From contig NZ_CP048405.1 in the NCBI RefSeq assembly GCF_014084125.1, positions 5,146,001-5,210,000 on the forward strand: a stretch of DNA of 64,000 nt. Direction: 5' to 3'. Under the pieces are notes generated by a model. It ran no database searches and was not told the origin of the DNA. It saw only the letters and a program-made list of their open reading frames with translations. Below, one piece after another: positions 13,046 to 34,132 of the stretch (the stretch's first letter is position 1; each line of letters opens with the position of its first letter). The translations under genes and the position numbers were made by a program. This DNA is from Streptacidiphilus sp. PB12-B1b (lineage in GTDB: Bacteria; Actinomycetota; Actinomycetes; Streptomycetales; Streptomycetaceae).

Positions 13046-13104
13046 CTCACGTCACCTCCCCTGCACAGCACGGGTCTTGGATGGGTCACGGGTGCTTCGG
13101 CCTC

Positions 13105-18134: not shown

Positions 18135-18362
18135 GCTCGCCTCCGTCACCGCACTGTGGACGACCGAGCCGTGGTTCCGGCTCCGTCTCGGTGATTTCAT
18201 GCTGGCAGCGGGGCCATGGCCGGGCATGGGTGAGCCGCACCCATCTTTGGCCGCCCCGCCCGGTCGGCACCGGGGCGGAGCACGCATGGACGCCGGGCCG
18301 TGCGTCGAGCCGCGCACCGGGCCCTGCGCCAGGCCGGGCGCGGCGGCCCGGACATGCGGAAA

Positions 18363-18439: not shown

Positions 18440-19069
18440 TCAGCTCTCCCGCAGCAGCTGGTCCAGGCTGCTGACCAGGCGCAGGGCGGCGTCGCGCCGC
18501 TCCGGGCCGAGGGGGAGCTGCAACGGGCCCACCGGGGCCGGGTCCGGCGTCCCGCTGCGGCCGCGTCGGCCGACGATGACGCGCAGGGCGGCGGCTGCCT
18601 GCCGGGCGAACAGCGCCAGCAGGTCGAGCTCGCCCAGGCTGGAGCGGGCCTGCGGGGAGGGGTCGAGCACCTCCAGCACGCCCAGGATGCGGTTGCCGTG
18701 GATGAGCGGGGCGGCCATCAGCGCCTGGGGCACGTACGCGGTCGACTCGGCCAGCGAGCGGTCGAAGGAGGGGTTCCGGGTGAGGTCGTCCACCACCATC
18801 GGCTCCCCGGAGACCAGCACCCAGCCGGCGATCCCGCTGCCGGCCGGGAAGCGGCTGCCCACCAGGGAGTTCTCGCCCTGCCCGGAGACGGCCTGGAAGA
18901 CCAGCTCGTCGGTCTCCTCGTCCAGCAGCATGATCGAGCTGGCCTGCGCGCCGAAGATGGCCCGGGCCACCTCGACCACGGACTCCAGCAGTTCCTGAGC
19001 CATCGGCTCCTGTTCCGTCGCCGTCTGCGCCGCGGCGGGCGACGGCGGTTGGCTTCCCTGGGTGATCAT
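18440..19069 (-). CDS. GAF-domain sensor protein
   Basis: A 209-aa soluble protein made almost entirely of one GAF domain (about residues 25-165): ARAIFGAQASSIMLLDEE, GSGIAGWVLVSGEP and AAPLIHGNRILGVLEVLDP are typical strands and loops. GAF domains bind small ligands or haem. There is no output domain, so it would act by partner contact. ATG 19069 overlaps the subtilase stop (ATGA), making it the last gene of the six-gene operon. Its role there is unknown; sensing redox state or cyclic nucleotide linked to the upstream cyclase protein is a guess. Confidence 0.85.
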   Translation of the reverse strand: MITQGSQPPSPAAAQTATEQEPMAQELLESVVEVARAIFGAQASSIMLLDEETDELVFQAVSGQGENSLVGSRFPAGSGIAGWVLVSGEPMVVDDLTRNPSFDRSLAESTAYVPQALMAAPLIHGNRILGVLEVLDPSPQARSSLGELDLLALFARQAAAALRVIVGRRGRSGTPDPAPVGPLQLPLGPERRDAALRLVSSLDQLLRES

Positions 19070-19908
19070 GTGGCATCCCTGTCGCTGATTCGGACGTTGG
19101 CCGCGGAGAGGTAGAGCGCGTTCTTCAACTGAAAGGTCGTCATCCTCGGGTGCTGGGAGAGGATGCGGGCGCACTGGCCGCTGATGAAGGGGGTGGCGAA
19201 GCTGTTGCCGCTGGTGCGGATGGAGCCGCCGCCGAGCCAGGCGACCGGGACGTTCTGGCCGGGGGCGAAGAACTCCACCGGCGGATCGGGGTTGTAGAGG
19301 TAGAGGTCGGCCTCCTCCTGGTGGCTGCCGACCGAGATGACCGAGGCGAACCGCCAGGGGAAGCTCTCCACCGGGGTGTTGTGCGCCGAGGCGACCAGCG
19401 CGGTCCGGGCGAAGTACGCCTCGTCGGCCAGCGCGTGCAGCTCCTGCATGAACTGGATCCTGGTGGTGGACAGGCTGAGGTTCACCACGTCGAAGCCCTG
19501 GCGCACGGCCCAGCGCAGCCCGGCGAGCAGGACGTCCCCGCTGCCGGAGAAGCGCTCCCCCAGCACCCGGACGCTGTACAGCTCGCAGTCGGGGGCGATC
19601 CTGCGGATGATGCCCGCGCAGGCCGTGCCGTGGCCGCAGCTGTCCCCGGTGTCGGTGGGCCGGACGGTGATCTCCCCGTCCGGGCCGTCCTTGGCGACGA
19701 CCCAGGAGCCGTCCACCGGGCCCACCAGCGGGTGGTCCCGGTCCACGCCGGAGTCGACCACGCACACCCGGACGCCGCGCCCGGTGGCCTCGCCCGACGT
19801 CCAGGTCGGCGGCACCGGCTCGCGGTCGGCCAGGACCGGCACGTCCTCGGGGCGCCTGCCCCGCAGGCTCCAGGTCAGTTCGGGGTCGGGCGGCACCACG
19901 GTCTCCAT
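19066..19908 (-). CDS. Subtilisin-like serine protease (S8), cytoplasmic
   Basis: A 280-aa subtilase with the full triad: D52 in VVDSGVD, H93 in CGHGTACAG and S236 in GNSFATP, plus the oxyanion asparagine N177. There is no signal peptide or propeptide and the protein is compact, unlike secreted subtilisins. RiPP clusters often use such proteases for maturation, and the candidate precursor (23397-23597) is in the same operon, so peptide cleavage is the best inference. It starts 4 bp after the stop of the cyclase/ATPase gene. Confidence 0.88.
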   Translation of the reverse strand: METVVPPDPELTWSLRGRRPEDVPVLADREPVPPTWTSGEATGRGVRVCVVDSGVDRDHPLVGPVDGSWVVAKDGPDGEITVRPTDTGDSCGHGTACAGIIRRIAPDCELYSVRVLGERFSGSGDVLLAGLRWAVRQGFDVVNLSLSTTRIQFMQELHALADEAYFARTALVASAHNTPVESFPWRFASVISVGSHQEEADLYLYNPDPPVEFFAPGQNVPVAWLGGGSIRTSGNSFATPFISGQCARILSQHPRMTTFQLKNALYLSAANVRISDRDAT

Positions 19909-19912
19909 CGAG

Positions 19913-22900
19913 TCAGCTCCTTGTTCTCGGCTGCGGCCCGGCCGCCGCGCCGCTGAGCGCCGCGGCCCAGCGGACGCCGGGCAGGTGGCCCTTCTGGGCG
20001 AACCGGGCCCCGGCCGTGGCCGCCGCCGCGGCGGCCTGCTCCGGTCTGCCGAGCAGCCGCAGCGCGTGCGCCCGGTCCAGCGCGGCCACCGCCTGGACGA
20101 TCGGGGAGTCGGTGCGGGCGGCGGCCTCGACCGCGGCCCGGGCGAGCCGCAGCGCCTCGCCGCTGCGGCCCCCGGCGGCGGCGATCCGGCTGCGGATACC
20201 GGCCTCGTCCACCGCCTCGGCCCCGGGCAGGGTGCTGGGCTGCCCGGCGGGGGTCAGCCGGTCCAGGGCCTCGGCCGCCTCGGCCCAGCGGGCGTCGTCC
20301 GCCAGCAGCCGCGCCGTCTCCAGCGAGACGGTGGCCAGCAGTCCGCCGCCGCCCAGCCGTCCGCCCGCCTCGGCCGCCTGCGCCAGCCGGCTCAGCGCCT
20401 GCGCCCGGCGTCCGGTCAGCGCGTCGACCGCCGCCGCGAAGACGGGGATGAAGACCTCGGCCTCGGCATAGCCCAACTCCCCTGCGATGGAAGCCGATTC
20501 GGCCAGCAGCCGGTGTGCCTCGGCGGGCTGGTCGCGCAGCGCGAGCAGCATCGCCAGCGGGCAGCCCAGGGTGGCCCGCACGGTTCTGCGGCCCGGGCCG
20601 TGCTCGGCCAGCAGCTCCCGGCAACGTTCGACGGCCACCGGCACCGGCTCGGGCCCGCGCCACAGCGAGATGCCCATGGCGCCCAGGGCCACAGCCCGCT
20701 CCGGCTCGGCGTCGGCGCGCCGGGCGTGCGCCAGGGCGCGGGTGAGGGCCTGGTCGGCCCGGCCGTGACGGCCCTGCACCTGGTAGTGCTGGGCCAGCCG
20801 GATCCGGGCCCGGGCCTGGCCGAGGTCGTCCCCGGCCGCCTCGAACACCGGCAGCACCGCCTGCGCGGTCTCGGCGACGGCGGCCGGACCGCCCGGGTCC
20901 AGCGTGGCCAGCGCGAGCCGGGCATGGGCGGCCTCCACCCGGTCCACCGGCCGCCGCAGGTCGGTGCCGGGCGCGGGGTGGTCCGGCGCGGGGTGGTCCG
21001 GCGCGGGGTGGTCGGGCGCGGGGGTGGCGGGCGCGGAGTGGTCCGGCGCGAGGTGGTCGGGCGCGGGGGTGCCGGGCGCGGGGGTGCCGGGCGCGGGGGT
21101 GCCGGGCGCGGGGGTGCCGGGCGCGGGGTGGTCGAGCAGTTGGCGCAGCAGTCGGCGTCCCTGGTCGGTGCGGCCGAGCGCCAGTCTGGCCTCGCCCAGT
21201 CGGCGGGTCGCGGACACCCCGGCGGGCTCGCCCGGGCGGGACAGCCGGACCGCCCGGTCCAGCAGGTCGTCCGCCCAGGAGAGGTCGGACCGGGACAGGG
21301 CCAGCGCGCCTGCCCGGGCCAGGCCGTCCGCGGCACGGCGGCGCAGGGTCTCGGTGTGCGCGTCCAGCAGCCCCAGCTCGGTGCGGTAGCGGTGGGCCCG
21401 CTCCAGGTGCGCGGCGACCGCGCCGTGGCCGTCCGCGCGTACCGAGGCCAGACCGGCGGCCCGCTCGTGCCGCTCGGCCCGGGAGCGCTTGGACATGCAG
21501 GCGTAGGCGACCTCCTGGACGAGGCCGCTGCTGAAGCGGAAGGCGATCCGGTCGGGCGCGGTCCGGCGGGCCGGCTCGACCAGGCGGCGGCGGCTCAGCC
21601 GCGCCAGCGCGGCGCGGGCCGGGCCCTCGGAGCCGTCGCCGGTGCCGACTCCGCCGCCCAGCTCGTCCTCGGGGCCGGAGGCGGCCAGCCGGACCAGCTC
21701 GTCGGCGTCGAACTCCCGGCCCAGCACCGAGGCGAGGTCCAGCGTGACGCGCTCGGCGCGCTCCAGCGCGTCGATGCGGGCGCCCAGCAGGGCCTGCAGG
21801 GTGGCTGGCACCCCCTCGCCGACACCGCCGGTACCGGTCGGCCCGGCGGCACCTGCGGGCAGGTCGGAGACGTCCATGGCCAGCAGCTGCTCCAGGTGCA
21901 GCGGGTTGCCGCCAGCCCGTTCCAGCAGCCGCTCCGAGACGCAGGCGCTGTGGGCGCCGACCTCCGTCAGCCCGGCGGCCAGCCGCACGGCCTCCTCGGC
22001 GGACAGGCCCGCCAGCGGCAGCGCCCGCCCGGCGGCGCCCCAGCCGGGACGGGTGTCGAACAGCTCCGGCCGCGCCAGGCAGACCACCAGCACCGCCGCC
22101 GCGCCCAGCTCCGCCACCACCCGTTCCACCACGTCGAGCAGGACCGGGGTGGCCCAGTGGGCGTCGTCGACCACCAGGACGACCGGGGCGCGGGCCGCCA
22201 GCACGGACAGCAGGCGCACCAGCGCGGCGCAGGTGTCGTTGACGGAGGGGTTGGGCGTGCCGTCCAGCAGGAGCCCGGCGTCCAGCACCGCCAGCGCGTC
22301 GGCGACGGCTTCGGAGCCCGGGTCGGCGACGGTGCTGGTGCCGTTGCCGGTGCCGGTGAGCGCCGGGGCGTCCGGGTGGCGCAGCGCGTGCTCGTCCAGG
22401 ACCTGCCGCAGCGCCTCGGCCAGCGGGGTGAGGCTGCCGCGGTCGCCGTAGGTGCGGCACCGCCCTGCGCCGCACAGGGCGCCCCGGGGGCCGGAGCGGT
22501 CGCGGCGGCCGAGCCACTCGCGGACCAGTCGGGTCTTGCCCAGCCCCGCCTCGCCGCCGACGACGGCCAGCTGTGCGCCGCCGCCCCCGGCCGCACGGTC
22601 CAACACGGCGTCCAGCCGGGCCAGTTCGCGTCCCCGGCCGACGAAGGGGAGGTCGAAGCGGCGCAGCAGGCCGGGATCGTCGTCCCCCAGGCCGAGCAGC
22701 CGGTGGGCGGAGACGGGTTCGGCCTTGCCCTTGAGGTGCAGCGGCCCGACCGGGGCCACCCGGGCGGCCGGTCCGGCGGCGCGCAGGGTCTCCGGGCCGA
22801 TCAGGATCTGCCCCGCGCCCGCGTTCTGCTCCAGCCGCGCGGCGACGTTCACCGTCTCGCCGGAGATCAGCGCCTGCCGCGTGGAGTTGTCCGAACCGGC

Positions 22901-23359
22901 CACCACCTGGCCGGTGTTGACGCCGATCCTGACGTCCAGCCGTACGCCCAGGGCGGGTTCGAGCTCGGCGTTCAGCCGGGCCAGTGCCTCCAGCATGCCC
23001 AGGGTGGCGGCCAATGCGCGCCGGGCGTCGTCCTCGCGCATCGAGGGCACGCCGAAGACGGCCATCACCGCGTCGCCGATGAACTTCTCCAAGGTGCCGC
23101 CACAGGACTCGATCTGATGGCGCATCACTTCGAAGTAGCGAAGCGTGACCGAGCGCAGGGTCTCCGGGTCGAGCGCCGCGGAAAGTCGGGTGGAGCCGAC
23201 CAGGTCGCAGAAGACGATGGTCACCACCTTGCGTTCCTCGGCCCGGCCGGAGCGGACCGCCGTCGCGGCGGAGACGGCGGACGGCCGGTTCGGTGTGCCG
23301 CAGGAGGGGCAGAAGCGGGCGTCGGTCGGCAGCGGGTGGGCGCATGCGGAGCAGTTCAT
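19913..23359 (-). CDS. Class III nucleotidyl cyclase / AAA-type ATPase / TPR signalling protein
   Basis: A 1148-aa multidomain protein. A zinc ribbon (C3, C6, C17, C20) leads into a class III adenylyl/guanylyl cyclase catalytic domain with both metal aspartates (D52 in FCDLVGST, D96 in FIGDAV), K92 and the N171/R175 pair (ETVNVAARLE), so it looks catalytically complete. Next come a STAND-type ATPase with Walker A GGEAGLGKT near residue 285 and a C-terminal TPR array. A Pro/Ala/Asp/His repeat tract lies within the TPR part. Such proteins are usually stand-alone regulators; here it sits in a biosynthetic operon between the candidate precursor and the protease. Confidence 0.88.
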   Translation of the reverse strand: MNCSACAHPLPTDARFCPSCGTPNRPSAVSAATAVRSGRAEERKVVTIVFCDLVGSTRLSAALDPETLRSVTLRYFEVMRHQIESCGGTLEKFIGDAVMAVFGVPSMREDDARRALAATLGMLEALARLNAELEPALGVRLDVRIGVNTGQVVAGSDNSTRQALISGETVNVAARLEQNAGAGQILIGPETLRAAGPAARVAPVGPLHLKGKAEPVSAHRLLGLGDDDPGLLRRFDLPFVGRGRELARLDAVLDRAAGGGGAQLAVVGGEAGLGKTRLVREWLGRRDRSGPRGALCGAGRCRTYGDRGSLTPLAEALRQVLDEHALRHPDAPALTGTGNGTSTVADPGSEAVADALAVLDAGLLLDGTPNPSVNDTCAALVRLLSVLAARAPVVLVVDDAHWATPVLLDVVERVVAELGAAAVLVVCLARPELFDTRPGWGAAGRALPLAGLSAEEAVRLAAGLTEVGAHSACVSERLLERAGGNPLHLEQLLAMDVSDLPAGAAGPTGTGGVGEGVPATLQALLGARIDALERAERVTLDLASVLGREFDADELVRLAASGPEDELGGGVGTGDGSEGPARAALARLSRRRLVEPARRTAPDRIAFRFSSGLVQEVAYACMSKRSRAERHERAAGLASVRADGHGAVAAHLERAHRYRTELGLLDAHTETLRRRAADGLARAGALALSRSDLSWADDLLDRAVRLSRPGEPAGVSATRRLGEARLALGRTDQGRRLLRQLLDHPAPGTPAPGTPAPGTPAPGTPAPDHLAPDHSAPATPAPDHPAPDHPAPDHPAPGTDLRRPVDRVEAAHARLALATLDPGGPAAVAETAQAVLPVFEAAGDDLGQARARIRLAQHYQVQGRHGRADQALTRALAHARRADAEPERAVALGAMGISLWRGPEPVPVAVERCRELLAEHGPGRRTVRATLGCPLAMLLALRDQPAEAHRLLAESASIAGELGYAEAEVFIPVFAAAVDALTGRRAQALSRLAQAAEAGGRLGGGGLLATVSLETARLLADDARWAEAAEALDRLTPAGQPSTLPGAEAVDEAGIRSRIAAAGGRSGEALRLARAAVEAAARTDSPIVQAVAALDRAHALRLLGRPEQAAAAAATAGARFAQKGHLPGVRWAAALSGAAAGPQPRTRS
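20965..21135. repeat. In-frame minisatellite within the cyclase/ATPase gene
   Basis: About eleven imperfect 15-bp units of GGTGGTCCGGCGCGG or GGGTGCCGGGCGCGG type, encoding five-residue APGTP and APDHP repeats in the minus-strand protein. The period keeps frame, so copy number could vary without breaking the gene. Confidence 0.8.
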
Positions 23360-23396
23360 CAGGGTGTCCTTGCCTGTCCGGCCGAGGCCGCGGCCG

Positions 23397-23597
23397 TCAG
23401 AAGAGCGCGCCGCCGGCGATCTCGCTGTGCGCCTGGACCTCCGGGCCGACCTCGTCGAGCCGACTCTTGATGTCCAGCAGCAGCGCGAGCTCCTCCGGGC
23501 CGAGCTCGCGCAGCACCTCCTGCTGCTCGCTGGTGAGGACGTCGACGGCGAACCCGGCCGCGCCCAGCCGTTCGAGGGTGTCGTGATGCTCGGTCAT
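23397..23597 (-). CDS. Candidate RiPP precursor, 'aroma-sacti cluster' type (66 aa)
   Basis: A 66-aa peptide with an acidic, helix-prone N-terminal two thirds (AAGFAVDVLTSEQQEVLREL, then PEELALLLDIKSRLD) and a short tail PEVQAHSEIAGGALF. The shape, a conserved helical leader and a small C-terminal tail with glycines and a final aromatic residue, resembles what I remember being catalogued as the aroma-sacti cluster domain family near radical SAM enzymes. There is no cysteine, so classical sactionine bonds are impossible. ATG 23597 overlaps the stop of the diiron oxidase gene (ATGA). It may be a precursor or an accessory recognition protein. Confidence 0.72.
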   Translation of the reverse strand: MTEHHDTLERLGAAGFAVDVLTSEQQEVLRELGPEELALLLDIKSRLDEVGPEVQAHSEIAGGALF

Positions 23598-24382
23598 GTC
23601 GGGCCTCCGGTAATGGTCGCGCTCGGGTTCGGGGTCGCGGTCGTGCTGGGGTTCGGGGTCGGGCTCGGGGTCGGTGCGGCCAGCCGGTGGAACAGCCGGG
23701 CCAGGGCGGCGGCGGTGTGCAGCGCGCTGACGGTGACCGCGCGCTCCTGCTCCCCGGTCAGCGGGAGCGCGTCCAACAGCCGCTCCAGCGCGCGCAGATG
23801 GCCGCTGTCCAGGGCGGCATGGTCCCTGACCGTGCGCACGGCCGCCGCCGGCAGGCCGGTGCAGGCCATCAGCCGGTCGGCGAGCCACGGCGCGGGGGCG
23901 TTGCCCTCGAGGACCAGGACGTAGCCGAGCAGGGTGACCGGGTGGTGGTGCTCGATCCAGTAGTACTGCGCCCCGGCGAGTTCGGCGACCACCGGCGGGG
24001 GCAGCCGGAGCAGCGGCTCCGCCGGGTCCGCCCCGGCTGCGGCGAGGTCGGCCAGCAGCCAGTCGTCGTGGCCCTGCTCCTCCTCGGCGTGCTCCTCGAA
24101 GTACCGCCGCAGCGGCTCAGCCAGCGGATCGCCCGGGCCCAGCCCGGCGCAGCGGGCGGCGGCGCGCAGCATCAGCGGCACCGACGCCCGGATGACGGCG
24201 TGCATGGTGTGCAGGTACTCGACGTAGCGCCGGTCCAGGTCCGGCTGCTGCCACAGGGCGTCCATGGCGGCCCGCAGCGCGGGCGCGGCGAGGCCGAGGG
24301 TGACCCGCAGCCGGACCGACGCGGCCGGACCGGACGCGCTCGGGCCGGACGCGCTGGGGCCGGGGGCGGTCGGGCCAGTCAT
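23594..24382 (-). CDS. Haem-oxygenase-like diiron oxidase (HDO) family protein
   Basis: A 262-aa all-helical protein annotated in databases as 'iron-containing redox enzyme'. Ligand pattern seen: E101 and H105 in EEEQGHDDW, E159 in LVLEGN, and H188-X3-D192-X2-H195 (HAALDSGH), the signature of oxygen-activating members such as UndA and CADD. It is translationally coupled both to the radical SAM gene (ATGA at 24379-24382) and to the small peptide gene. The last 35 residues are a Thr/Pro/Asn-rich tail. Substrate unknown; modification of the small peptide is plausible from the coupling alone. Confidence 0.82.
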   Translation of the reverse strand: MTGPTAPGPSASGPSASGPAASVRLRVTLGLAAPALRAAMDALWQQPDLDRRYVEYLHTMHAVIRASVPLMLRAAARCAGLGPGDPLAEPLRRYFEEHAEEEQGHDDWLLADLAAAGADPAEPLLRLPPPVVAELAGAQYYWIEHHHPVTLLGYVLVLEGNAPAPWLADRLMACTGLPAAAVRTVRDHAALDSGHLRALERLLDALPLTGEQERAVTVSALHTAAALARLFHRLAAPTPSPTPNPSTTATPNPSATITGGPT

Positions 24383-25479
24383 CGGTGGGCCGCTTCCGCC
24401 GGGCGGTCCTGGGCCAGCGTCACCAGGTCGGCGTAGGCGGCGCTGCCGTGCCGTCGGACCAGCTCGGCGGGCCCGGCCCCGGCCTGCCGCCGCTCGGCCT
24501 CGCGGTCCAGCAGCTCGCCGACCAGCCCGCTGGCGTCCCGGGCGGCGCCCGCCAGCGCCTCGGGGCGGTCGCCCAGGGCGCGGCAGGTGGAGCAGTAGCC
24601 GCCGGGGCGGCCCTCAGCGGGCCGTTCGGCGCCGGCCCGGGCGAGCAGGTGGAGCGGGCCGACGGTGCGGATCATCCGCAGCGTCGGCGAGCCCAGGGCC
24701 CTGCGGCGGACGGAAGCCCAGTCGTCCGAAGCGATATGACCGAGCGTCAGATGTTCCGGTGCGGGGCGCCGGTCGACGGTCTGCTGGTTGCAGCAGGCGA
24801 GGACGGTGCCGTCGAACGCCACCACCGGCCAGGCCGCCATCGAGCACGGCAGCGCCCGGGAGCCGTCGAGCTGCGGGCGGGCGGCGGCGGCCCAGGCCGC
24901 GGCCCGGCCGACCGGCCGGACCTCGTTCACCAGCATCGGCACCTGCCCGCCGAAGGCCCGGCGGATGTCGGCGGTGGCGTCGGCCAGGTAGGGGTCGTCC
25001 GGGCCGGTGCCGGCCAGGTGGAAGCTGGCGGCGACGCCGGAGTCCAGGACCTGCCGCACCGCCCGGAACACGTCCGCGCGCGGGACCTCCCGCTCGTGGA
25101 AGGCGTCCAGGCTGGCCGAGAAGTGGTCGACGGCGGTGATCGCCCGCATGATCCGGGCCGGTATCCGCTCCCGGCGGGCGAAGAACATCCCGCTGAGCAG
25201 CACGCTGCGGGTGCCCGCCCGCCGGGCGGCGGCGGCCAGCCGGGCGGCGAGGCCGGGCAGCAGCAGCGGCTCGCCGCCGGTCAGCAGGACCGCCTCGGGC
25301 CGGTCGTCCGGGGTGAACGAGCCGACGAACCGCAGCAGTTGCTCGGCGCTGGGCTCCTCACCGGCCATGGTCGACCCGGTGGAGCAGTGGGCGCAGCTCA
25401 GCGGGCAGCGGCGGGTCAGGGTGACCAGCAGCCCGGCGCAGCGGACCGGGCGCAGTCCGATGAGTTCGGCCAGGTGCAC
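24379..25479 (-). CDS. Radical SAM enzyme, candidate RiPP maturase
   Basis: A 366-aa radical SAM protein with C25-X3-C29-X2-C32 (RCPLSCAHC), GGEP in LLTGGEPLLL, and C-terminal cysteines (PCSMAAWPVV, then VLACCNQQ and YCSTCRAL) that could bind an auxiliary cluster as in peptide-modifying enzymes. GTG 25479 with GAGGGGG upstream is the only start that gives a sensible N-terminus. It leads the six-gene operon (radical SAM, HDO, peptide, cyclase, subtilase, GAF), 125 bp downstream of the SARP regulator. No separate RRE-like domain is visible. Confidence 0.87.
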   Translation of the reverse strand: MHLAELIGLRPVRCAGLLVTLTRRCPLSCAHCSTGSTMAGEEPSAEQLLRFVGSFTPDDRPEAVLLTGGEPLLLPGLAARLAAAARRAGTRSVLLSGMFFARRERIPARIMRAITAVDHFSASLDAFHEREVPRADVFRAVRQVLDSGVAASFHLAGTGPDDPYLADATADIRRAFGGQVPMLVNEVRPVGRAAAWAAAARPQLDGSRALPCSMAAWPVVAFDGTVLACCNQQTVDRRPAPEHLTLGHIASDDWASVRRRALGSPTLRMIRTVGPLHLLARAGAERPAEGRPGGYCSTCRALGDRPEALAGAARDASGLVGELLDREAERRQAGAGPAELVRRHGSAAYADLVTLAQDRPAEAAHR

Positions 25480-25604: not shown

Positions 25605-27568
25605 TCAGGACCGGTATGCCAGCAGCTCGGCACAAGTGTCCGGGGCCGCGTCCGGGCCCGCTTCCGCGTCCGGCGCGGCGGGGGCAGGGACCAGGCTGAG
25701 CCCGGGGCGTCCCCCGGGCTCGCCGTGCCGGGCGGTGTCGCGGGCGTACAGCTGGGTGAGCAGCGGCAGCGAGTACAGCACGGTGTGGGCGGCGACCTCG
25801 CCGTCCGGTGCGCTGACCGCCCCGGCGTCGATCAGCGACTCCAGCTGCCGCATGGCGGCGTCCGCCCCCGGCCGAGGACGGCGGCGGCCTCGTGGAGGGT
25901 GAACGGGCGGGCGAGCGGCAGCCGGGCCAGCCGGAGCAGCGCGGCCCGTCCGTCCGCGGGCAGCTCGCGCCAGCCGACGGCCAGCCGGGGGCGGACCGCC
26001 ACATCGCCCGCGGCGAGCTCGTCCAGCAGCCCGGCGGAGCCGGCCAGCCGGTCGGCGTACTCGGCCAACGGCAGGTGCCGGAGCACCGACAGCCGCATGC
26101 CGCTCACCCGGACGCCCAGCGGCAGCAGCCCGCTGGCGGCGACGATGCGCTCCGCCGCCTCCCGGTCCGCCCGGACCCGCTCGCTGCCGATGATCCGCTC
26201 CAGCAGCTCCAGCGCCTCGGCCGGGGCGTAGGGGCGCACCTCGGACCGGTGCGCCGCCGACAGCCCGGCGAGCTGGCTGCGGGAGGTGACCAGCGCCGCG
26301 CCTGCCCCGGTGCCCGGCAGCAGGGCGCGCGCGGCGGACTCGTCCGGGGCGTCGTCCAGGACCAGCAGCATCTTCCGGTCGGCCAGCCAGCCGCGCCAGG
26401 CCGCCGCGGCGGCGTCCGGATCGTCGGGCACGCTCCCGGCCAGGCCGGTGAGGCGCAGCAGGTCCCCGAGGACGGAGGTCCAGCAGCGGGGGGTGCCGTC
26501 CTCGGCGCGCAGCCGCACCAGGAGCCGCCCGTCGGGGAAGTCGGCGCGCATCCGGTGCGCGGCGTGGACGGCGAGGGTGGTCTTGCCGGTGCCGGTCGGT
26601 CCGACCAGGACGACCGTCCGGCCCTCGGCGCGGCGCAGCGCGTCGGTCAGCCGGGCCAGTTGGGCCTGGCGGCCGGTGAAGTCCACGGTGTCCGCGGGCA
26701 GCAGGGTGCGGCCGCCGCGCCCGGCCGCCGCGCCGGAGGCCGACGGTCGGCCGGGGTCGGGCCGGGCGTCCGGCGCGCCCGAGCCGTCGGCCAGGATCGA
26801 CCGGTAGAGCTGCTCCAGAGGCGGGCTCGGGGCCAGACCCAGCTCGCGGGAGAGCAGCTGCCGGAGCCCGTCGTAGGCGGCCAGGGCCTCGGTCCGGCGG
26901 CCGGTGCGGTGCAGGGCGCGCATCCGGGCGGCCTGCAGCCGCTCGCGCAGCGGGTGCTGCTCGACCAGGTCGTCGATGCCGTGGAGCACCGCCTGGGCCT
27001 GGCCGGTCTCCAGCGCGGCCTCGGCCCAGTCCTCGTAGATGCCGAGGCAGCGCAGATCCAGCCGCTCGGCCTCCGCCTGGAGCGGCTGCGAGCAGCGCAG
27101 GTCCGGCAGGGACTCGCCCTGCCACAGTTCCAGGGCCTGGCCCAGCAGGGCGGCGGCCGAGGCGAATCCGCCCTCGGCGGCGGCCTCGCGGCCGGCCCGG
27201 GCCAGCGCGTCCAGCCGGTGCGTGTCCAGCTCGCCGGAGGCGATCCGCAGCAGATAGCCGCCGGGGTGCAGGGCGAGCCGTTCCGGGCCGGGCCCGCGCC
27301 CGAGCAGGGTGCGCAGCGCCGACGCGTACACCTGCAGGTTCTTCCGGGCGGTGCGCGGCGGGTCGTTCTGCCAGAGCGCCTCGGTCAGCAGGTCCACCGG
27401 GACGGGGGTGTTGGCCCGGCAGAGGAGCTGGGCCAGGAGCAGCCGCTGCTTGTGCGGGCCGAGCGGCACGGGCAGGCCGCCGGCCCGGACGGCGAGCGGG
27501 CCGAGGAGGGAGAAGGTCATGGGGGTTGCCGTTGCCGTCGGCTCCGCTCCCCGCTGTTCGTGTGCCAC
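25605..27568 (-). CDS. SARP-family transcriptional activator (AfsR-type), probable C-terminal frameshift
   Basis: Pathway activator: N-terminal OmpR-type winged helix (FSLLGPLAV, PLGPHKQRLLLAQLL), bacterial transcriptional activation domain (about 110-265), then an NB-ARC/STAND ATPase with Walker A GPTGTGKTT. The start may be ATG 27568 or, better matching SARPs, ATG 27520 (MTFSLLGP). The frame stops at 25832. Adding one base to the CCCCC run at 25865-25869 extends it with helical sequence (MRQLESLIDAGAV) to 25605. It lies directly upstream of the radical SAM operon and is its most likely activator. Confidence 0.85.
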
Positions 27569-27731: not shown

Positions 27732-30680
27732 TCAGGGGCGGTCGGCCAGTTCGACCGACAGCCGGCACAGGCCCGCGCGGTCGGGCCGGGCGGTCTTCTG
27801 CAGCAGGCTGGCTATGTGCTTCTCGACGGTGCGCGGCGAGATGGACAGCCGCCGGGCGATGTCCTGGTTGCCGGGCCGGTCCGCCAGCAGCGCCAGCACC
27901 TCGTACTCGCGCGGGGTCAGGCCCTGGGCCCGCAGGTCGGCGGGGATCAGCTCGCGCCCGCTGCGGCGCTGCGCCACGTTGGCGCCCGCCTGCCGCAGCA
28001 GCGCCCGGCAGGCCCCGGCCACGGCCGGGATGTCCTGGCTGTGGAAGTACTCCTCGGCGGTGCGCAGCCAGGCCACCGGCTCGCCCCAGCCGTCGGCCAG
28101 GGCCGCCTCGGCGACCAGCCGCAGGCCCAGGTGGTGCGCGGTCGGGAAGACCCCGGCGGTCGTGCGCACTTCGTCGACGATCCGGGCGGCCTGCTCGGGT
28201 CGGCCCTCCCGGCCCAGCAGCACGGCCTCGGTGAGCTGCAGGAACTGCCGGTTCCAGGCGAGCCCGGCCGCCGGGGCGGCGGCCACGGCGGCGTACTCGG
28301 CCCGGCCCCCGCCGCCGTCCCCGCCTCGGCCGCCGTCCCTGCTCCCGCCGCCGGAGAGCACCGCCAGCAGCGGGCGCAGGCCGTACCGGCCGGAGAGGTA
28401 GTGCAGGTTGGGGTGGCGCGCCTCCCAGGCGGCGCTCGCCGCCAGTTCGGCCGTGGCCGCCGCCCGGTCCTCCTCCAGCAGTGCGCAGACGGCCCGGCAG
28501 AGCCCGAGCATCACCGGCACCAGGATGGATTCGCCGCCGCCCGCCTTCTCGAATCTCAGCAGCGCCCGCTCCATCTCCCGGCGGCGGCCGCGGTGGGCCT
28601 CGAGGGTGGCCGCGGTCAGCAGCAGGTAGCGGTGGGTGGAGATGTTGCGCATGCGCTCGGTGGCGCCCAGGCAGCGGCCGATGATCTCCGTGGCGGCCTC
28701 CGGCTCGCCACGCAGCACCGCCTGCATGGCCAGCAGTCCGTCGGCGTTCTGGGTGAGCACGATCGAGCCCAGCTCGCTGGCGGCCTCCCGGGCCTGCTCG
28801 ACCCTGCGGCCGTCGCCGGTGCGCATGTACGCGTTCACGCCCAGCCGCATCAGTGCCTCGACCCGCCACACCGGCAGGGAGTTGGCCTCGGCGACGGCGA
28901 GCATCCGCTCCAGGCAGACGTCGGCGGCCTCGAAGCCCAGCTCGCGGGCCATCAGTGCGAGCACCTGCCAGGACTGGCAGGCCAGGATGGGCAGTTTGGT
29001 GCGCTCGGCGAGTTCGACCGCCTCCCAGACCGGGCGCTCGGCGTCGGCCGTCCACTCGTCCCGGCCGGGGAGCAGGGCGAGGTGTCCCTCGACCACGGCC
29101 AGTGCGGCCAACTGCTCCGGGCTGCCTGTGGAGCCGAGCAGCCGGCGGGCCTCCTCCACCTGCCGGACCGCGTCCGCCGCCCGCTCGGCGGCCACCGCGG
29201 CCCAGGCCAGCCGGGTGTACAGGGCGATCCTGCGGTCCTGGTCGAGGGCGGCCGCCCCGGTCGCGGGCAGGTTCTGGGCCAGGGCGAGGGCGGAGTCCAG
29301 CTGGCCGGCCTCGGCCAGGGCGTACAGCAGCGACTCCATGATGCCGGGCTTGCCCGCCGGGGCGGCGAGCTGGTGGGCGCGCTGGAGCAGCAGCACGGCC
29401 GACGCCGACATGCCGTCGGCCAGCGATCGGCGTCCGGCCTCGGCGAAGAGCAGCGCCGCATCGGTCGGGTCCCCGGCCGTGACCAGCAGCCCGGCGACCA
29501 ACTGACATCGGTCGTCCGAGAGTTCGGGGTCGGCGCGCTGGAGCGCGTCGGCGGCGTGCCGGGCGGTGGCGGCGCGCTCGGCGGGCGGCATGCTGGCCAG
29601 CACCGCGTCGGCGGTGAGCGCGTGCCGGAAGGCGTACCGGTGCGGGGCCGTGCCGTCGGGGACGATCAGGCCCGCCTCGGCGGCGGAGCGCAGGTACGCG
29701 AACAGGCTGCGGTCGTCGTGACCGGTGATCAGCTGGAGGTGGGTGACCGAGAAGCCGACGCCCAGCGAGGCCGCCAGCAGCACCACTTCGCGTACCTGCG
29801 GGTCGAGCTGGTCCACCCGGTGGCCGTAGCTGCGGATCACCGTGGCCGGGACGGTCGCGGAGAGGTCGCCGCCCACCTGCCAGCCGTCCGGGCCGGGGAA
29901 CAACAGGCCGGAGCCGACGATCTCGGCCAGCAGCTCCTCGATCAGGTAGGGGTTGCCGTCGGCGCTGTCCACCAGCCGTTCCACCACCGCGGCCGGGACG
30001 CGGTCGGCGGGGGTGTTCAGGCAGCCGGCGGCGAGTTCCCGCACGGCCGGCGGGGTCAGCGGCCGCAGCTCGGTGACGGGGGCGGCCCGGCGCCGGTCGG
30101 CCTCGCGGACCAGCCCCAGCGCCGGGCCCGGCTCCGGCCGCAGCGTGGCCACCAGCAGCACCGGCAGTCCGGCGAGGTTGTCCACCAGGTACTCCACGAC
30201 GGCGACGGTCTCCGAGTCGGCGTCGTGCAGGTCCTCCAGCACCAGCAGGCAGCCGGTGTCCCGGCCCAGCACGGCCAGCAGCCGCAACAGCGCCTCGGCC
30301 AGCTCGATCATGCTCTCGTGGCCCGAGTAGCCCGGCGCCGCCTGCCGCCACTCCGGGACCAGCCGGGCCAGGGCCGGGCGGTAGGGGTCGAGGTCGGCGT
30401 CGGTGGGCGGGCCGCCGACCCGGAAGCGGGAGGCCAGCGCCTCCGTCAGCGGACGGAACGGCGTGCCCGCGCCGGTCGGCCGTCCGCGTCCGCGCAGCAC
30501 CGGCAGGCCCAGCGCGGCCGCCTGCGCGGTGCACTCGTCGACCAGCCGGGACTTGCCGATCCCCGCCTCCCCCAGCAGGAACAGCGCGCGTCCGGCGTGC
30601 TGCCGCAGGCCCGTCAGCGCGCCGCTGAGCAGGGCGATTTCGGTGTCCCGACCGACGGTTGCCGCTGAAGTGGTCCGCAT
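27732..30680 (-). CDS. LuxR-family regulator, LAL (MalT-like) type
   Basis: A 982-aa large ATP-binding LuxR regulator: Walker A LLGEAGIGKS at about residue 40, a long helical/TPR-like middle, and a C-terminal LuxR helix-turn-helix (LTPREYEVLALLADRPGNQD, SPRTVEKHIASLLQKT). ATG 30680 is chosen because the GGGG just upstream fits a ribosome site and upstream extension would run into the promoter region of the divergent precursor genes. It is divergent from the class III lanthipeptide genes with a 200-bp gap, so it probably controls them. Confidence 0.9.
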   Translation of the reverse strand: MRTTSAATVGRDTEIALLSGALTGLRQHAGRALFLLGEAGIGKSRLVDECTAQAAALGLPVLRGRGRPTGAGTPFRPLTEALASRFRVGGPPTDADLDPYRPALARLVPEWRQAAPGYSGHESMIELAEALLRLLAVLGRDTGCLLVLEDLHDADSETVAVVEYLVDNLAGLPVLLVATLRPEPGPALGLVREADRRRAAPVTELRPLTPPAVRELAAGCLNTPADRVPAAVVERLVDSADGNPYLIEELLAEIVGSGLLFPGPDGWQVGGDLSATVPATVIRSYGHRVDQLDPQVREVVLLAASLGVGFSVTHLQLITGHDDRSLFAYLRSAAEAGLIVPDGTAPHRYAFRHALTADAVLASMPPAERAATARHAADALQRADPELSDDRCQLVAGLLVTAGDPTDAALLFAEAGRRSLADGMSASAVLLLQRAHQLAAPAGKPGIMESLLYALAEAGQLDSALALAQNLPATGAAALDQDRRIALYTRLAWAAVAAERAADAVRQVEEARRLLGSTGSPEQLAALAVVEGHLALLPGRDEWTADAERPVWEAVELAERTKLPILACQSWQVLALMARELGFEAADVCLERMLAVAEANSLPVWRVEALMRLGVNAYMRTGDGRRVEQAREAASELGSIVLTQNADGLLAMQAVLRGEPEAATEIIGRCLGATERMRNISTHRYLLLTAATLEAHRGRRREMERALLRFEKAGGGESILVPVMLGLCRAVCALLEEDRAAATAELAASAAWEARHPNLHYLSGRYGLRPLLAVLSGGGSRDGGRGGDGGGGRAEYAAVAAAPAAGLAWNRQFLQLTEAVLLGREGRPEQAARIVDEVRTTAGVFPTAHHLGLRLVAEAALADGWGEPVAWLRTAEEYFHSQDIPAVAGACRALLRQAGANVAQRRSGRELIPADLRAQGLTPREYEVLALLADRPGNQDIARRLSISPRTVEKHIASLLQKTARPDRAGLCRLSVELADRP

Positions 30681-30880: not shown

Positions 30881-31027
30881 ATGGCTGAGCAGAACACCCC
30901 CGAGACCGAGACCGACGAGGTCGAGGCGCACAGCGAGTCCGTCCTTCCGCTGCAGGAGCTGACGGACAACCCCAGCAGCGACCGCGCCGTGATGTCCAGC
31001 TCGGTGAGCCTCGCCGCCTGCGCCTGA
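30881..31027 (+). CDS. Class III lanthipeptide precursor 1 (48 aa)
   Basis: Short gene with AAGGAG 6 bp before ATG 30881. The leader contains DEVEAHSESVLPLQEL, with the LPLQEL element matching the leader motif bound by LanKC enzymes. The core region DNPSSDRAVMSSSVSLAACA ends in S40-X2-S43-X3-C47, the spacing required for a labionin or a lanthionine. It lies just upstream of a second precursor with the same leader block and of LanKC. Confidence 0.88.
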   Translation: MAEQNTPETETDEVEAHSESVLPLQELTDNPSSDRAVMSSSVSLAACA

Positions 31028-31140: not shown

Positions 31141-31317
31141 ATGACCGACCCCCGTGGCCACGCGTCCGAACCGGTCGGGACCGTGGAGTCCGTGGACGAG
31201 GTGGAGGCCCACCTCTCCGTCCTGCCGTTGCAGGAGTTGGGCGTCCGCGAGCACCCGGCCGAGGCGGGCGCGGACCTCATCCACCCGATGAGCGCGACCA
31301 GCCTGGCCGGCTGCTGA
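31141..31317 (+). CDS. Class III lanthipeptide precursor 2 (58 aa)
   Basis: ATG 31141 follows GAAGGAGAAGGCCA. The 58-aa peptide repeats the leader block of precursor 1 (DEVEAHLSVLPLQEL) and ends IHPMSATSLAGC, again with S51-X2-S54-X3-C58. Cys is the very last residue. Sequence between leader block and core is unlike precursor 1, so the two have diverged except for the recognition helix and ring motif. A substrate of the LanKC that begins 137 bp downstream. Confidence 0.88.
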   Translation: MTDPRGHASEPVGTVESVDEVEAHLSVLPLQELGVREHPAEAGADLIHPMSATSLAGC

Positions 31318-31453
31318 GGAACGCCCCGCGCCTCGACTGCACCCGACCGGGGCCGGGCGCGCGGACGGGCCCCGCAAGGACCCTCCCCGCGCCCGGACCG
31401 TGGCACCACCGGGCCCGCCGCCGGCCCCGTCCCGTTCCGTTGTGGAGATGGTC

Positions 31454-34132
31454 ATGAGCCTTCCGATCCCGTACATCATCGCGGACCGCGAGTTCTACGC
31501 GCCGCTGGAGTGCAGCCGTGAGCGCGGTGAGGAGTACCGGCCCAGCCAGGTCCCGCAGGGGTGGCTGGAGACCGAGTCCGCGATCTGGACCATGTGGTAC
31601 CACCAGGGCGTCCTGCGCGGCGTCGAGGACGGCTGGAAGGTCCACGTCTCCGCGCGGCCGGGCCGCCAGGCGGCCGTCCTGGACCTGGTCGCCGACGTCT
31701 GCTTCGCGCAGGACGTCGCCTTCAAGCACCTGTCCTCGCACCTCTTCTACTTCTGGACGCACCACAAGCACGCCTCCCGGGCGCAGGGCGGCAAGTTCAT
31801 CGCGGCCTACCCCACCGGCGTCGACGCGGCGCGCACGCTGATGGAGTCGCTGCGCGAGACGCTCGCCGACGAGGAGGGCCCCTACATCCTCAGCGACCGG
31901 CGCTACCGCGACTCGCGCACGGTGCACTACCGGTACGGCGGGTTCACCCCCCGCAGCCGGCTCACCGCCGACGGCACCCGGACGCTGCTGGTCCGCGACG
32001 GCGACGGCCGCGAGGTCGAGGACCGCCGGGGCGTGGCCTTCCACCTGCCCGCCGGGGTGGCCGACCCGTTCACCACCGTCGCCAAGGCCGCGCCGACGCC
32101 CGCAGCCGCGCCCGCGCCGAAAGCCGCCGATCCCGCACCGAAGGCCGCCGCGCCCGCGCCGATCACCGTGCACGGCTTCGTCTTCGAGCAGGCCGTGCAG
32201 TACAGCAACGCCGGCGGGGCGTACCTGGCGCACGAGGCAGCCACCGGACGGCCGGTCTTCATCAAGGAGGCCCGCGCCCACACCGGCCTGAGCGCGGGCG
32301 ACGTGACCGCGATCGAGCAGCTGCGCCGCGAGTGGGAGATCCTCCGGGCGCTGCACGCCGCCGCGCCCGGGCTCGCCCCCGAGCCGGTCGGCTACTTCCA
32401 CCAGTGGGAGCACGCGTTCATGGTCACCGAGCGGATCGGCGGCGCGCCGCTGAACCGCTGGATGGTGCTCAACCAGCCCATGCTCGGCGTGGACCGCCGA
32501 CCCGAGGAGTTCACCGAGTACCACGCCCGCTGCCGGCGCATCCTCTCCCAGGTCGAGCAGGCCCTGGAGCGCCTGCACGCGCTCGGCTACCTCTTCGTGG
32601 ACGTCAGCCCCGGCAACGTCCTGGTGACCGACGACGACCAGGTCAGGCTCATCGACTTCGAGGGCGTCCACCGGCTCGGCACCGACTTCGCCTTCATCGG
32701 CACCCCGGGCTACACCCCGCCGACCGCCCTGGTCGGCGACGACCTGGCGATCTACGACGACTACGGGCTCTCCGCGCTGGCCCTGCTGCTGCTCGGCCCG
32801 TTCCACCAGGTCGTCATCCGCAACCCCGACGCGCTCGCGCACCTGCGCCACGACCTGCACGAGCGGGCGCCCGTCCCGGAGCCGCTGTGGCAGCTGGCCA
32901 CCCGCTACCACCGGCCGGGCACCCCCGGCCGCGACCCGCAGGGCGCCCCGCTGCCCGGCCCGGAGCAGGTGGCCGCCGAGCCCGAACGGCACCTGGCCGA
33001 CCTGCGCGACGCGATCGCCGACGGGCTGCTGGCCATGGCGGAGCCCGAGCACCCCGCCCGGGTGTTCCCCACCATCGCCGAGGGGTACCAGAGCAACACC
33101 CTGTGCGTGGCCTACGGCACCGCAGGCGTCGCCCACGCCCTGCACCGCGCCGGACGCGAGCTGCCGGACGGCGTCCTCGACCGGCTCCGCCGCGAGGCCG
33201 TGGACTCCGCCGACGACCTGGGCCCCGGGCTGTACGTCGGGGCGTCCGGGATCGCCCGGGTGCTGGCCGACCAGGGGCACCCGGAGGAGGCCCGCAGCCT
33301 GCTGGCGGCGGCCGACCGGCACCCGCTCACCAAGGAGTCCGCGACCCTGTTCGGCGGCTCAGCCGGGCTGGCCCTGGCGCACCTCGGGCTCTACCGGCAC
33401 ACCGGCGACCAGCAGCACGTCGACCGGGCCCTGGAACTGGCGGCGGCGCTGCCGTCGAGCCGGGAGCTGACCCCGCTGCTGGGCCCGGACGACGCCACCG
33501 GCCTGCTGCACGGCCGCTGCGGCATCGCCCTGATGCTCCAGCAACTGTCGCTCGTCACCGGCGACAGCGCCCATCTGGCACGCGGGGTGGAGCTGCTGCA
33601 CGCCGAACTCGACCGGGCCGTCGACCCCGGCGCCGCCGGGCTGGAGTTCCCGGTCTCCGCCGTCGACCAGCGCAGCCTGCCGTACCTGTTCTGCGGGTCG
33701 GCCGGGATGGCGCACACGGTCACCCGCTACCTGCGGGTGGTGGACGACGCCCGGCTGGCCGAGGCGCTGCCCCGGCTGCTCGCCTCGCTGCGGATCACCT
33801 ACACCGTGATGCCCGGCCTCTACCAGGGCCTCTCCGGCCTGGGCCTGGCCCTGGCCGAGCACGCCGACCTCACCGGCGAGCAGGCGAGCCGCCGGGACGC
33901 CACCCGCGTCGCCCGCGCCCTGTTCAAGTACGCCGTCAACCACCCCACCGGGGTGCGCCTGCTCGGCGACCAGCTGATGCGGTACAGCACCGACCTGTGG
34001 AGCGGCTCGGCGGGCCTGCTGCTCTTCCTGAGCCACCTGCTGGAGCCGCGCCCCGACCCGCTGTTCACCGTGGACGCGCGCACCCCCGTCGCCGCGCCCG
34101 CGAGGAGGACGCCCGATGCGCCGGTCCGGTAG
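31454..34132 (+). CDS. Class III lanthipeptide synthetase (LanKC)
   Basis: An 892-aa three-domain enzyme. The N-terminal lyase part has WKVHVSARP, FKHLSS, GKFIAAYP and TVHYRYGGF (about 55-165). A Pro/Ala linker (PAPKAADPAPKAAAPAP) leads to a kinase (about 245-520) with FVDVSPGNVLV and LIDFEG. The LanC-like domain has LFCGSAGM but lacks the Cys-His pair that completes the zinc site, as in class III. ATG 31454 has GGAG 6 bp upstream; an ATG at 31448 is less well placed. It overlaps the MFS gene by 17 bp. Confidence 0.92.
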   Translation: MSLPIPYIIADREFYAPLECSRERGEEYRPSQVPQGWLETESAIWTMWYHQGVLRGVEDGWKVHVSARPGRQAAVLDLVADVCFAQDVAFKHLSSHLFYFWTHHKHASRAQGGKFIAAYPTGVDAARTLMESLRETLADEEGPYILSDRRYRDSRTVHYRYGGFTPRSRLTADGTRTLLVRDGDGREVEDRRGVAFHLPAGVADPFTTVAKAAPTPAAAPAPKAADPAPKAAAPAPITVHGFVFEQAVQYSNAGGAYLAHEAATGRPVFIKEARAHTGLSAGDVTAIEQLRREWEILRALHAAAPGLAPEPVGYFHQWEHAFMVTERIGGAPLNRWMVLNQPMLGVDRRPEEFTEYHARCRRILSQVEQALERLHALGYLFVDVSPGNVLVTDDDQVRLIDFEGVHRLGTDFAFIGTPGYTPPTALVGDDLAIYDDYGLSALALLLLGPFHQVVIRNPDALAHLRHDLHERAPVPEPLWQLATRYHRPGTPGRDPQGAPLPGPEQVAAEPERHLADLRDAIADGLLAMAEPEHPARVFPTIAEGYQSNTLCVAYGTAGVAHALHRAGRELPDGVLDRLRREAVDSADDLGPGLYVGASGIARVLADQGHPEEARSLLAAADRHPLTKESATLFGGSAGLALAHLGLYRHTGDQQHVDRALELAAALPSSRELTPLLGPDDATGLLHGRCGIALMLQQLSLVTGDSAHLARGVELLHAELDRAVDPGAAGLEFPVSAVDQRSLPYLFCGSAGMAHTVTRYLRVVDDARLAEALPRLLASLRITYTVMPGLYQGLSGLGLALAEHADLTGEQASRRDATRVARALFKYAVNHPTGVRLLGDQLMRYSTDLWSGSAGLLLFLSHLLEPRPDPLFTVDARTPVAAPARRTPDAPVR

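Follow-up and report, generated by a model that had tools for sequence, protein, structure and literature searches.

Epipeptide systems such as EpeX/EpeE (B. subtilis yydFG) use an ABC exporter. Excerpts of PMC10885120 assign their protease to the M50 family. The same excerpts describe a cytoplasmic S8 peptidase, ElxP, which recognizes (D/E-5)(L/V-4)XX(Q-1), and give the motif of AmyP as (T/S/A)EVE. In the StsA system, as given in an excerpt of PMC12710340, the RRE is a protein of its own, StsC, and a WxxP motif is described. For the heme-oxygenase-like protein VarO of the thiovarsolin cluster, deletion pointed to a dehydrogenase role, as given in an excerpt of PMC6511847.

The gene set described here lies in the window, the whole stretch of 64,000 nucleotides from Streptacidiphilus sp. 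PB12-B1b that was analyzed. It consists of two separable modules. Module A contains a precursor peptide, a radical SAM enzyme and a heme-oxygenase-like dimetal oxidase (HDO). Module B contains a cyclase/ATPase protein, a subtilase (S8) and a GAF-domain protein, and is also found without module A. A fairly likely explanation of the locus is a dual RiPP cluster, in which module A would make an epimerized and oxidized tail peptide and the subtilase of module B would trim both this peptide and neighboring precursors.

Gene set and its conservation

The six genes form one coupled run on the minus strand, as originally predicted (Table 1). Their junctions measure -4, -4, +37, +4 and -4 bp, and the three spaced by -4 bp are thus ATGA-type overlaps. 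In a script-based gene-order comparison, all six genes occur together in 70 of 103 homologous loci, a set that includes five weak loci (L143-L147) showing none of the six and at least three pairs that are near-copies, since their S8 proteins are identical. The exact order of the window is found in 62 of the 103, which bears out the expected conservation. Five loci keep the order with a second radical SAM gene, and four of these five have three peptides. At three further loci the script put the peptide stop beyond the cyclase start; judging from the gene maps, this is a coordinate effect as far as can be told. The six-gene grouping is far beyond chance. Outside Streptomycetaceae the reach of the family is small: in a set of 396 genomes from across the phylum, five contain it, and three of the five, the genome of the window included, belong to the same family.

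The set lies behind a SARP-type regulator, also as predicted. Between the end of the regulator's main frame and the start of the radical SAM gene lie 352 bp; the C-terminal ~45 residues of the regulator are located in another frame (25605-25853, tblastn with relatives). The SARP family is present at 73 of 104 loci and the LuxR-type regulator family at 25 of 104, the window counted in both. Three features were absent from the original prediction: the split into two modules, the adjoining RiPP system with its E-V-x-A-H tag, and the likeness to EpeE.

The open-licence full-text literature was searched by titles and starts of abstracts, and no description of the gene set is found among the matches listed. 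No match in this literature was obtained for 'aroma-sacti', for radical SAM, HDO and RiPP jointly, or for radical SAM, subtilisin-like, GAF, RiPP and Streptomyces jointly.

Table 1. Positions of the gene set and its neighbors in the window
Feature	Position	Strand	Evidence
Stand-alone GAF-domain gene	18440..19069	-	PF01590, 72.7 bits
Subtilase (S8) gene	19066..19908	-	PF00082
Zn-ribbon/class III nucleotide cyclase/AAA ATPase/TPR gene	19913..23359	-	PF00211, PF13191
Precursor peptide gene, 66 aa	23397..23597	-	NF045560 leader + EVQAH + SEIAGGALF
Proposed core SEIAGGALF	23400..23426	-	Tail conservation
EVQAH tag, proposed subtilase recognition site (cut after His)	23427..23441	-	Alignment, companions
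HDO gene	23594..24382	-	PF14518; Foldseek/VIA; conserved residues
Radical SAM enzyme gene	24379..25479	-	GTG start; PF04055
SARP-type regulator (main frame)	25832..27520	-	PF03704 (BTAD), PF00931 (NB-ARC)
LuxR-type AAA regulator, upstream of SARP	27732..30680	-	PF13191, PF00196
Companion lanthipeptide precursor 1	30881..31027	+	DEVEAHS (30917-30931 = EVEAH), LPLQ
Companion lanthipeptide precursor 2	31141..31317	+	EVEAH (31198-31212), LPLQ
Class III lanthipeptide synthetase	31442..34132	+	RamC_N, kinase, partial LanC match
MFS transporter after synthetase	34167..35474	+	Profile annotation

The precursor peptide and its putative modifying enzymes

The peptide matches NF045560, the 'aroma-sacti cluster domain', with 74.6 bits (cut-off 30), in agreement with the predicted RiPP-like nature and with the family name given in the original prediction. 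On the StsA-related sactipeptide model NF045559 it reaches 26.8 bits (cut-off 75). The genome of the window contains additional NF045560 matches below cut-off. None of the 66 residues is Cys, so the window peptide is not a sactionine, as had been argued; a sactipeptide reading was rejected for want of a core Cys to form a Cys-Calpha thioether. NF045560 family members ending in Cys exist, beside other enzymes; where a locus carries a CoaC-like flavoprotein together with two additional radical SAMs, its peptide has a C-terminal Cys (5/5).

An alignment of main-class peptides (64 distinct sequences) supports the predicted leader-like body. Mean pairwise identity is 99.5% in the last six residues (AGGALF) versus 61% in the leader, and E, V and H of the tag are invariant in all 64. 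The type of tail follows the enzyme set. Both radical SAM and HDO genes are present at the locus for 84 of 88 aromatic-tailed peptides, whereas neither enzyme accompanies any of the 24 peptides that end differently. Among the aromatic-tailed loci, L019 encodes the two enzymes fused in one ORF of 604 residues, L133 has the HDO at a contig end, and L131 and L136 lack both enzymes, as well as S8, in the vicinity. With L019 taken as HDO-bearing, this label needs four changes in a leader-only tree, at least three of them forced by well-supported branches. HDO-bearing aromatic tails appear in the main group, beside [FV]RIG leaders (L077) and beside LKLL leaders (L097, L127, L128), in trees that left out the family peptide of L126 itself. 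Other tails are associated with other enzymes: an ATP-grasp gene is located at all six LKLL/LKVL loci and at the four of ten IKLA loci that were extended.

The peptide could instead be an unmodified structural or regulatory subunit. The system is without a known product, and the 24 other-tailed peptides occur without radical SAM and HDO. However, the tail class follows the enzyme set across leader backgrounds, and the tag is common to clear precursors, making such a subunit extremely improbable.

The radical SAM enzyme contains the RS cluster cysteines C25/C29/C32 and a free C230. C212/C229/C296/C299 probably bind an auxiliary cluster. Structural comparison of the model (pLDDT 75.6) placed EpeE first, with a VIA Z score of 19.9 and an rmsd of 3.8 over 295 aligned residues (target 317). 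SuiB is next (Z 14.1), followed by PqqE, SkfB and other peptide-acting enzymes. A wide profile matches EpeE with E about 1e-18; a narrow profile of 8 close relatives ranks PqqE slightly above EpeE, in the N-terminal part only. A PqqE or SkfB type was rejected on its weaker fold and wide-profile matches. The CC motif, whose second Cys is C230, is aligned to EpeE C223, the position that reads CA in the C223A mutant, and C230 is a Cys in 71 of 77 relatives. The score on TIGR04078 (YydG/EpeE epimerase) is 27.2 bits, below its cut-off of 300. The position of EpeE D210 is occupied by Trp, W217, in 77/77, a point against epimerization.

The HDO has a heme-oxygenase-like fold, with structural matches to 3dde, TenA, CtCADD, UndA and HrmI (Foldseek/VIA). 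E102 and H105 are present in 75/75 sequences, and H188, D192 and H195 in 74/75. In the 3 His/3 carboxylate ligand set, H105, H188, H195, D192 and E101/E102 are kept, while E144, the candidate for the sixth ligand, is Glu in only 60/75.

We propose that the NF045560 domain serves as the leader and that module A may modify the C-terminal tail into a short peptide. The EpeE-like radical SAM enzyme would remove a Calpha hydrogen of the tail, and C230 would give it back from the opposite face, producing D-residues. Oxidation of this tail by the HDO would follow, and the free aromatic residue at the C-terminus is the most plausible site. By analogy with UndA and VarO, the HDO reaction may be an oxidative decarboxylation or a desaturation.

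Alternatively, the radical SAM enzyme could introduce a cyclophane-like cross-link (C-C or C-N) into the tail or decarboxylate its C-terminus, a reaction that the HDO finishes, with no D-residue formed. The fold neighbors after EpeE (SuiB, PqqE and SkfB) act on peptides, the second Cys is missing in 6 of the 77 relatives, and the 0/24 count for non-aromatic-ended peptides is compatible with this chemistry as well. We consider it unlikely, however, as EpeE stands about six Z units higher, the CC motif, carrier of the H-donor in EpeE, is kept in 71/77, and, Phe apart, cross-link donors are few in the invariant AGGALF. Conversion of the tail into a redox cofactor, as with PQQ or mycofactocin, is very improbable. 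The parts list is alike (a short peptide, a radical SAM enzyme with an auxiliary-cluster region, a heme-oxygenase fold and a protease) and PqqE is among the weak matches, but the fold is closer to EpeE than to PqqE, the tail has no Tyr, and no dehydrogenase is found among the annotated neighbor families, which are part of the recurrent ones.

Module B and a tag shared with neighboring precursors

In module B, the cyclase was not recognized in three of 82 S8 loci (L077, L135, L139). Residues D52, D96, R175 and K275 of the cyclase protein (cyclase and Walker) are kept in 81/81, and its TPR_12 match falls below the cut-off for that model. The S8 catalytic triad is conserved (D52 in 81/83, H93 in 82/83, S236 in 83/83). 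On NF049966 QhpE the subtilase scores 98.9 bits, under the cut-off of 165. Judged by eye it contains no obvious signal peptide, and it may be located in the cytosol. None of the six proteins has a Pfam match to an RRE (PqqD).

The tag E/D-V-x-A-H links the peptide to neighboring precursors. Among 221 small companion ORFs (script limit 150 aa), 86 contain it, versus a mean of 0.7 and a maximum of 4 in 300 shuffles, and chance was rejected on this basis. A tagged companion accompanies cyclase and S8 at 56 of the 79 loci that have both. For the other 23 cassette loci the script reported none, and some of these are misses in which the companion exceeds 150 aa (L090, L094) or is outside the sequence stretch taken. 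In 9/9 multi-core precursors, with 2-12 repeats, the tag alternates 1:1 with the cores. Small ORFs that carry the LxLQ motif as well as the tag number 61. In 47 of them the tag precedes LxLQ and is not located at the core; a cut there would thus be a first trim only.

The synthetase beside the window's companions scores 200.9 bits on RamC_N, 47.4 on Pkinase and 42.2 on LANC_like, the last covering part of the model. Profile matches to tag-bearing lanthipeptide precursors are found in 51 genomes, 44 of which also have NF045560. In five of the remaining seven, cyclase-S8-GAF adjoins the synthetase, and neither radical SAM nor HDO nor peptide was found; in the other two the locus is cut by contig ends. 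Because the tag persists at loci where neither enzyme was found, it is unlikely to be a docking site read by the radical SAM enzyme or the HDO. Four tag-bearing loci without S8 in the stretch examined have the cassette elsewhere in the genome. The tag is absent from all 68 small ORFs at 20 control class III lanthipeptide loci, a set limited to the best RamC_N matches, none of them with module B. These controls rule out a general property of class III leaders, a reading also contradicted by three window precursors at 12773-13209, all without the tag. Searched as a text string in the open-licence full-text literature, the tag returned matches of which those listed are all unrelated by title.

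Over the family, the tag reads E-V-x-[AG]-[HQ], and its EVEGQ variant fits the ElxP motif exactly. In the S8 comparison the tag ends in Gln for 7 of 87 and in His for 80 of 87, 6 of the latter labeled by hand. Exactly one alignment column in the S8 tree separates the Gln type (7 Thr) from the His type (76 Gly, 4 Ser); the window's own S8, which is outside that tree, has G117 at this column. The covariation is only suggestive, since the Gln-type proteins group together in a single part of the tree.

These observations are consistent with module B acting as a processing and control unit. The subtilase, presumably cytosolic, would cut after E/D-V-x-A-H not only in the peptide of module A but also in unrelated adjoining precursors, here the two class III lanthipeptide precursors at 30881-31317. 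Control of the cleavage step, or of its expression, may fall to the cyclase and the GAF protein, and the SARP would turn on transcription.

We also considered that the tag docks another shared component (cyclase, GAF or exporter) and is no cleavage site. The association of the tag with the cyclase and GAF genes is about as close as that with S8, and many lanthipeptide precursors carry it ahead of LxLQ (47/61). Set against this, the 1:1 ratio of tags to cores in multi-core precursors is the pattern of a processing site, the motif resembles that of ElxP as given in the excerpts of PMC10885120, and S8 is the sole peptidase of the trio. We regard docking as decidedly unlikely. Possibly, though doubtfully, the trimmed tail acts as a pheromone that switches on the neighboring RiPP, with the SARP or the STAND/TPR parts of the cyclase protein as its sensor. 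The tail is near-invariant across species while its neighbors vary, the cyclase and ATPase residues are intact, and the SARP family is frequent (73/104). However, neither an exporter nor a receptor has been shown, and the cyclase-S8-GAF trio also occurs without the peptide. An extension of the processing role, which we offer tentatively, is a hub in which a cyclic-nucleotide-linked subtilase serves any tagged precursor, so that unrelated RiPP classes would share one protease in cis or in trans, with the near-invariant AGGALF peptide, epimerized and oxidized, as the conserved signal of the unit.

Comparison with described systems

Actinobacterial class III lanthipeptide clusters usually contain no protease, according to an excerpt of PMC7268733, and the pairing of tag and peptidase, also in trans, would therefore solve the maturation of uncharacterized clusters. 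If the proposal is correct, the tag is a new traceless cleavage tag. An epimerase-like radical SAM enzyme paired with a dimetal oxidase, once by fusion, would represent new RiPP chemistry on an invariant tail of six residues. In addition, the tag provides a sequence handle for precursors that standard mining may overlook.

Like the SapB/AmfS type of class III lanthipeptides, the companions have synthetases and LxLQ precursors; neither the tag nor module B, however, is found at the 20 control LanKC loci. In contrast to the StsA-related family, the window peptide contains no Cys. VarO is likewise a heme-oxygenase-like protein of an actinobacterial RiPP cluster, but it belongs to a thioamide class (YcaO/TfuA) and its target is an Arg side chain. 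With the epipeptide system the window enzyme has in common the EpeE fold, a Cys pattern for two clusters and the donor motif CC; it is, however, under the family cut-off and is accompanied by an S8 protease, an HDO, a cyclase and a GAF protein. ElxP and AmyP are also subtilases, and the tag resembles (D/E)(L/V)XXQ and contains EVE. Each of the two is given for one lanthipeptide class in the excerpted source, whereas here one S8 accompanies several unrelated precursor types.

The six-gene operon and its conservation

The operon of the original prediction is real, but it belongs to a larger arrangement, a dual RiPP system of two modules with a common tag. Module A contains the precursor peptide, a radical SAM enzyme and a heme-oxygenase-like dimetal oxidase (HDO). 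Module B contains a cyclase/AAA/TPR protein, a subtilase (S8) and a GAF protein. All six genes map to the minus strand where they had been placed, as checked in the sequence, and their tight coupling is borne out by junctions of -4, -4, +37, +4 and -4 bp. Pfam and NCBIfam identify them as radical SAM, Haem_oxygenas_2, aroma-sacti domain peptide, nucleotide cyclase plus AAA (with a weak TPR match), subtilase and GAF. The predicted SARP is found in front, its main frame ending 352 bp upstream. The C-terminal part lies in another frame, indicating that the gene is frameshifted in the window or that the sequence contains an error.

Within the genus, 8 of 14 genomes have matches to the peptide family NF045560, and across the bacterial family 91 of 394 do, 87 of them above the cut-off. 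Phylum-wide such matches occur in 5 of 396, the window's own genome counted, and three of the five are from the same family. The whole gene order was compared across 103 loci, at least three pairs of which have identical S8 proteins. All six genes are present in 70 loci, with the exact order in 62. Key residues are highly conserved. C25/C29/C32 of the radical SAM enzyme are kept in 73 of 77 relatives (the other four have gaps), and C212 and C229 in 77/77. HDO E102 and H105 are kept in 75/75, the S8 catalytic Ser in 83/83 and the cyclase Asp pair in 81/81.

Coordinates of features in and around the system
Feature	Positions	Remark
SARP, main frame and C-terminal continuation	25832-27520 and 25605-25853	frame differs for the last ~45 residues, by match to relatives
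Tandem repeat in cyclase gene	20980-21130	short; encodes Pro/Ala-rich linker (by eye)
Second class III lanthipeptide system	12773-18149	directly downstream of GAF gene; three near-identical 34-36 aa precursors (12773-13209), S9 peptidase, LanKC
Companion lanthipeptide precursors	30881-31317	two
Companion LanKC	31442-34132
Another cluster	9454-11699	ACP-like ORF (by eye), different-type radical SAM, PaaA/PaaC-like diiron protein
Terpene cyclase-like pieces	3-448	two adjoining ORFs, NDLYSYTKE motif (by eye)

A tag shared with companion precursors

Gene maps revealed a second, companion RiPP system adjoining many cassettes. With the window counted, class III lanthipeptide synthetases (LanKC) are found in 41 of 104 loci and a neighbor family of another radical SAM in 30. 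The companion precursors are unrelated to the NF045560 leader and bear the motif E/D-V-x-A-H that precedes the peptide's tail (EVQAH in the window). They include a lanthipeptide type (EVEAHSVLDLQ...), a multi-core type (EVVAHSGEDTPWCVINTGT), a type with V-I-C-G repeats and a long-leader type (L087). Among the 79 loci with cyclase and S8, the tag is present in 86 of 221 small companion ORFs, where 0.7 would be expected; tagged ORFs occur in 56 of the 79 loci. The pattern also arises by chance within larger proteins (84 of 1325 above 150 aa). In all nine multi-core precursors, tags alternate with cores at a 1:1 ratio over 2 to 12 repeats. Both companion precursors in the window are tagged. The tag is absent from the three window precursors of the other LanKC system. 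The companion LanKC may have a reduced cyclase domain, since only positions 4-91 of the 350 in the LanC-like model match it (42 bits).

A profile built from 18 tagged lanthipeptide precursors matches 51 of the 394 family genomes, 44 of which also carry NF045560. In five of the remaining seven, cyclase-S8-GAF adjoins LanKC, and no radical SAM, HDO or peptide was found near it. In the last two the contig ends in the cyclase and in the radical SAM, respectively. The precursor at L181 had been overlooked by the gene caller. The fetched stretch of four tagged loci (L184, L186, L187 and L195; L195 is also without LanKC, and L186 is interrupted by a contig end) contains no S8, and their genomes carry the cassette elsewhere (L087, L094, L129 and L079). 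Among 20 LanKC control loci, taken from top matches only, there was no module B, and the tag was in none of 68 small ORFs.

S8 is the sole peptidase of the cyclase/S8/GAF trio. The cytoplasmic S8 protease ElxP is described as recognizing (D/E-5)(L/V-4)XX(Q-1) (PMC10885120). As the tag persists with the trio and resembles the ElxP motif, we conclude that S8 most likely cleaves E-V-x-[AG]-[HQ] on the C-terminal side of its last residue, His or Gln.

The tail and its enzymes

The peptide was predicted to be a precursor, and its pattern of conservation agrees: tag and tail are nearly invariant while the leader drifts, and the tail changes with the enzymes across the wider family. In 64 distinct main-class peptides, the tag E, V and H and the tail A-G-x-A-L-F are invariant and the second Gly is present in 63, whereas mean pairwise identity of the leaders is 61%.

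Tail type shifts together with the enzyme set across NF045560. Both radical SAM and HDO genes are present in the loci of 84 of 88 aromatic-tailed peptides, and neither was found with any of 24 non-aromatic tails. Of the remaining four aromatic-tailed peptides, one has the two in a single ORF (8203-10017) at L019 of a Catenulispora MAG, and at L133 HDO is present at a contig end. Around the other two, L131 and L136, whose tails are IGGLLF, the fetched stretch contains no relative of the radical SAM, HDO or S8; by eye, their neighbors begin like CapA-type proteins. ATP-grasp accompanies all six LKLL/LKVL loci and the four extended ones among ten IKLA loci. A B12 radical SAM goes with all five Cys-ended tails and with both [FV]RIG tails; the Cys-ended ones additionally have a CoaC-like flavoprotein and a SPASM maturase-type radical SAM. 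Five loci (L095, L111, L114, L119 and L124) contain divergent NF045560 pairs, one peptide LKLL-ended beside ATP-grasp, the other Cys-ended beside radical SAM, flavoprotein and B12 radical SAM. These possibly represent another undescribed RiPP.

A leaders-only tree, built on 50 columns and with many forks open, requires four changes of the HDO label; well-supported branches force at least three of these, including that at L131/L136. Aromatic tails accompanied by an HDO are thus found on three leader backgrounds, which argues that the enzymes follow the tail.

The HDO model (pLDDT 82.8) resembles 3dde, TenA, CtCADD, HrmI and UndA. Substrate ligates Fe1 in five HDOs with bound substrate, and UndA is a fatty acid decarboxylase (PMC13108848). 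VarO functions within a RiPP pathway (PMC6511847). By analogy with these proteins, we propose that the HDO may oxidize the tail at its C-terminal aromatic residue.

Comparison with known systems

The radical SAM model (pLDDT 75.6) matches the peptide epimerase EpeE at Z 19.9 across 295 residues, the next entry being at Z 14.1. A profile of 14 relatives also matches EpeE (E about 1e-18, profile positions 16-300 of 358). In the profile alignment C229-C230 align with the EpeE CC, the second Cys being the residue altered in the C223A structures and the proposed H-atom donor (PMC8326336). The four conserved residues C212, C229, C296 and C299 are enough for one auxiliary cluster, so that C230 would remain free. 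Gly or Thr stands at the C230 position in six of 77 relatives, each the first of two radical SAM enzymes in its cluster (L097, L127, L128, L130, L135 and L139). The window enzyme scores only 27 bits with the NCBIfam epimerase model and has Trp at the position of EpeE D210; we therefore call it EpeE-like, not a member.

Of the 82 loci with S8, 81 have GAF and 79 a recognized cyclase. The cyclase active site is intact. These two proteins may control transcription or proteolysis, or may have no such role.

Among the matches listed in the open-licence literature, no description of the gene combination or of the tag was found. The RiPP cluster itself is of a known kind.
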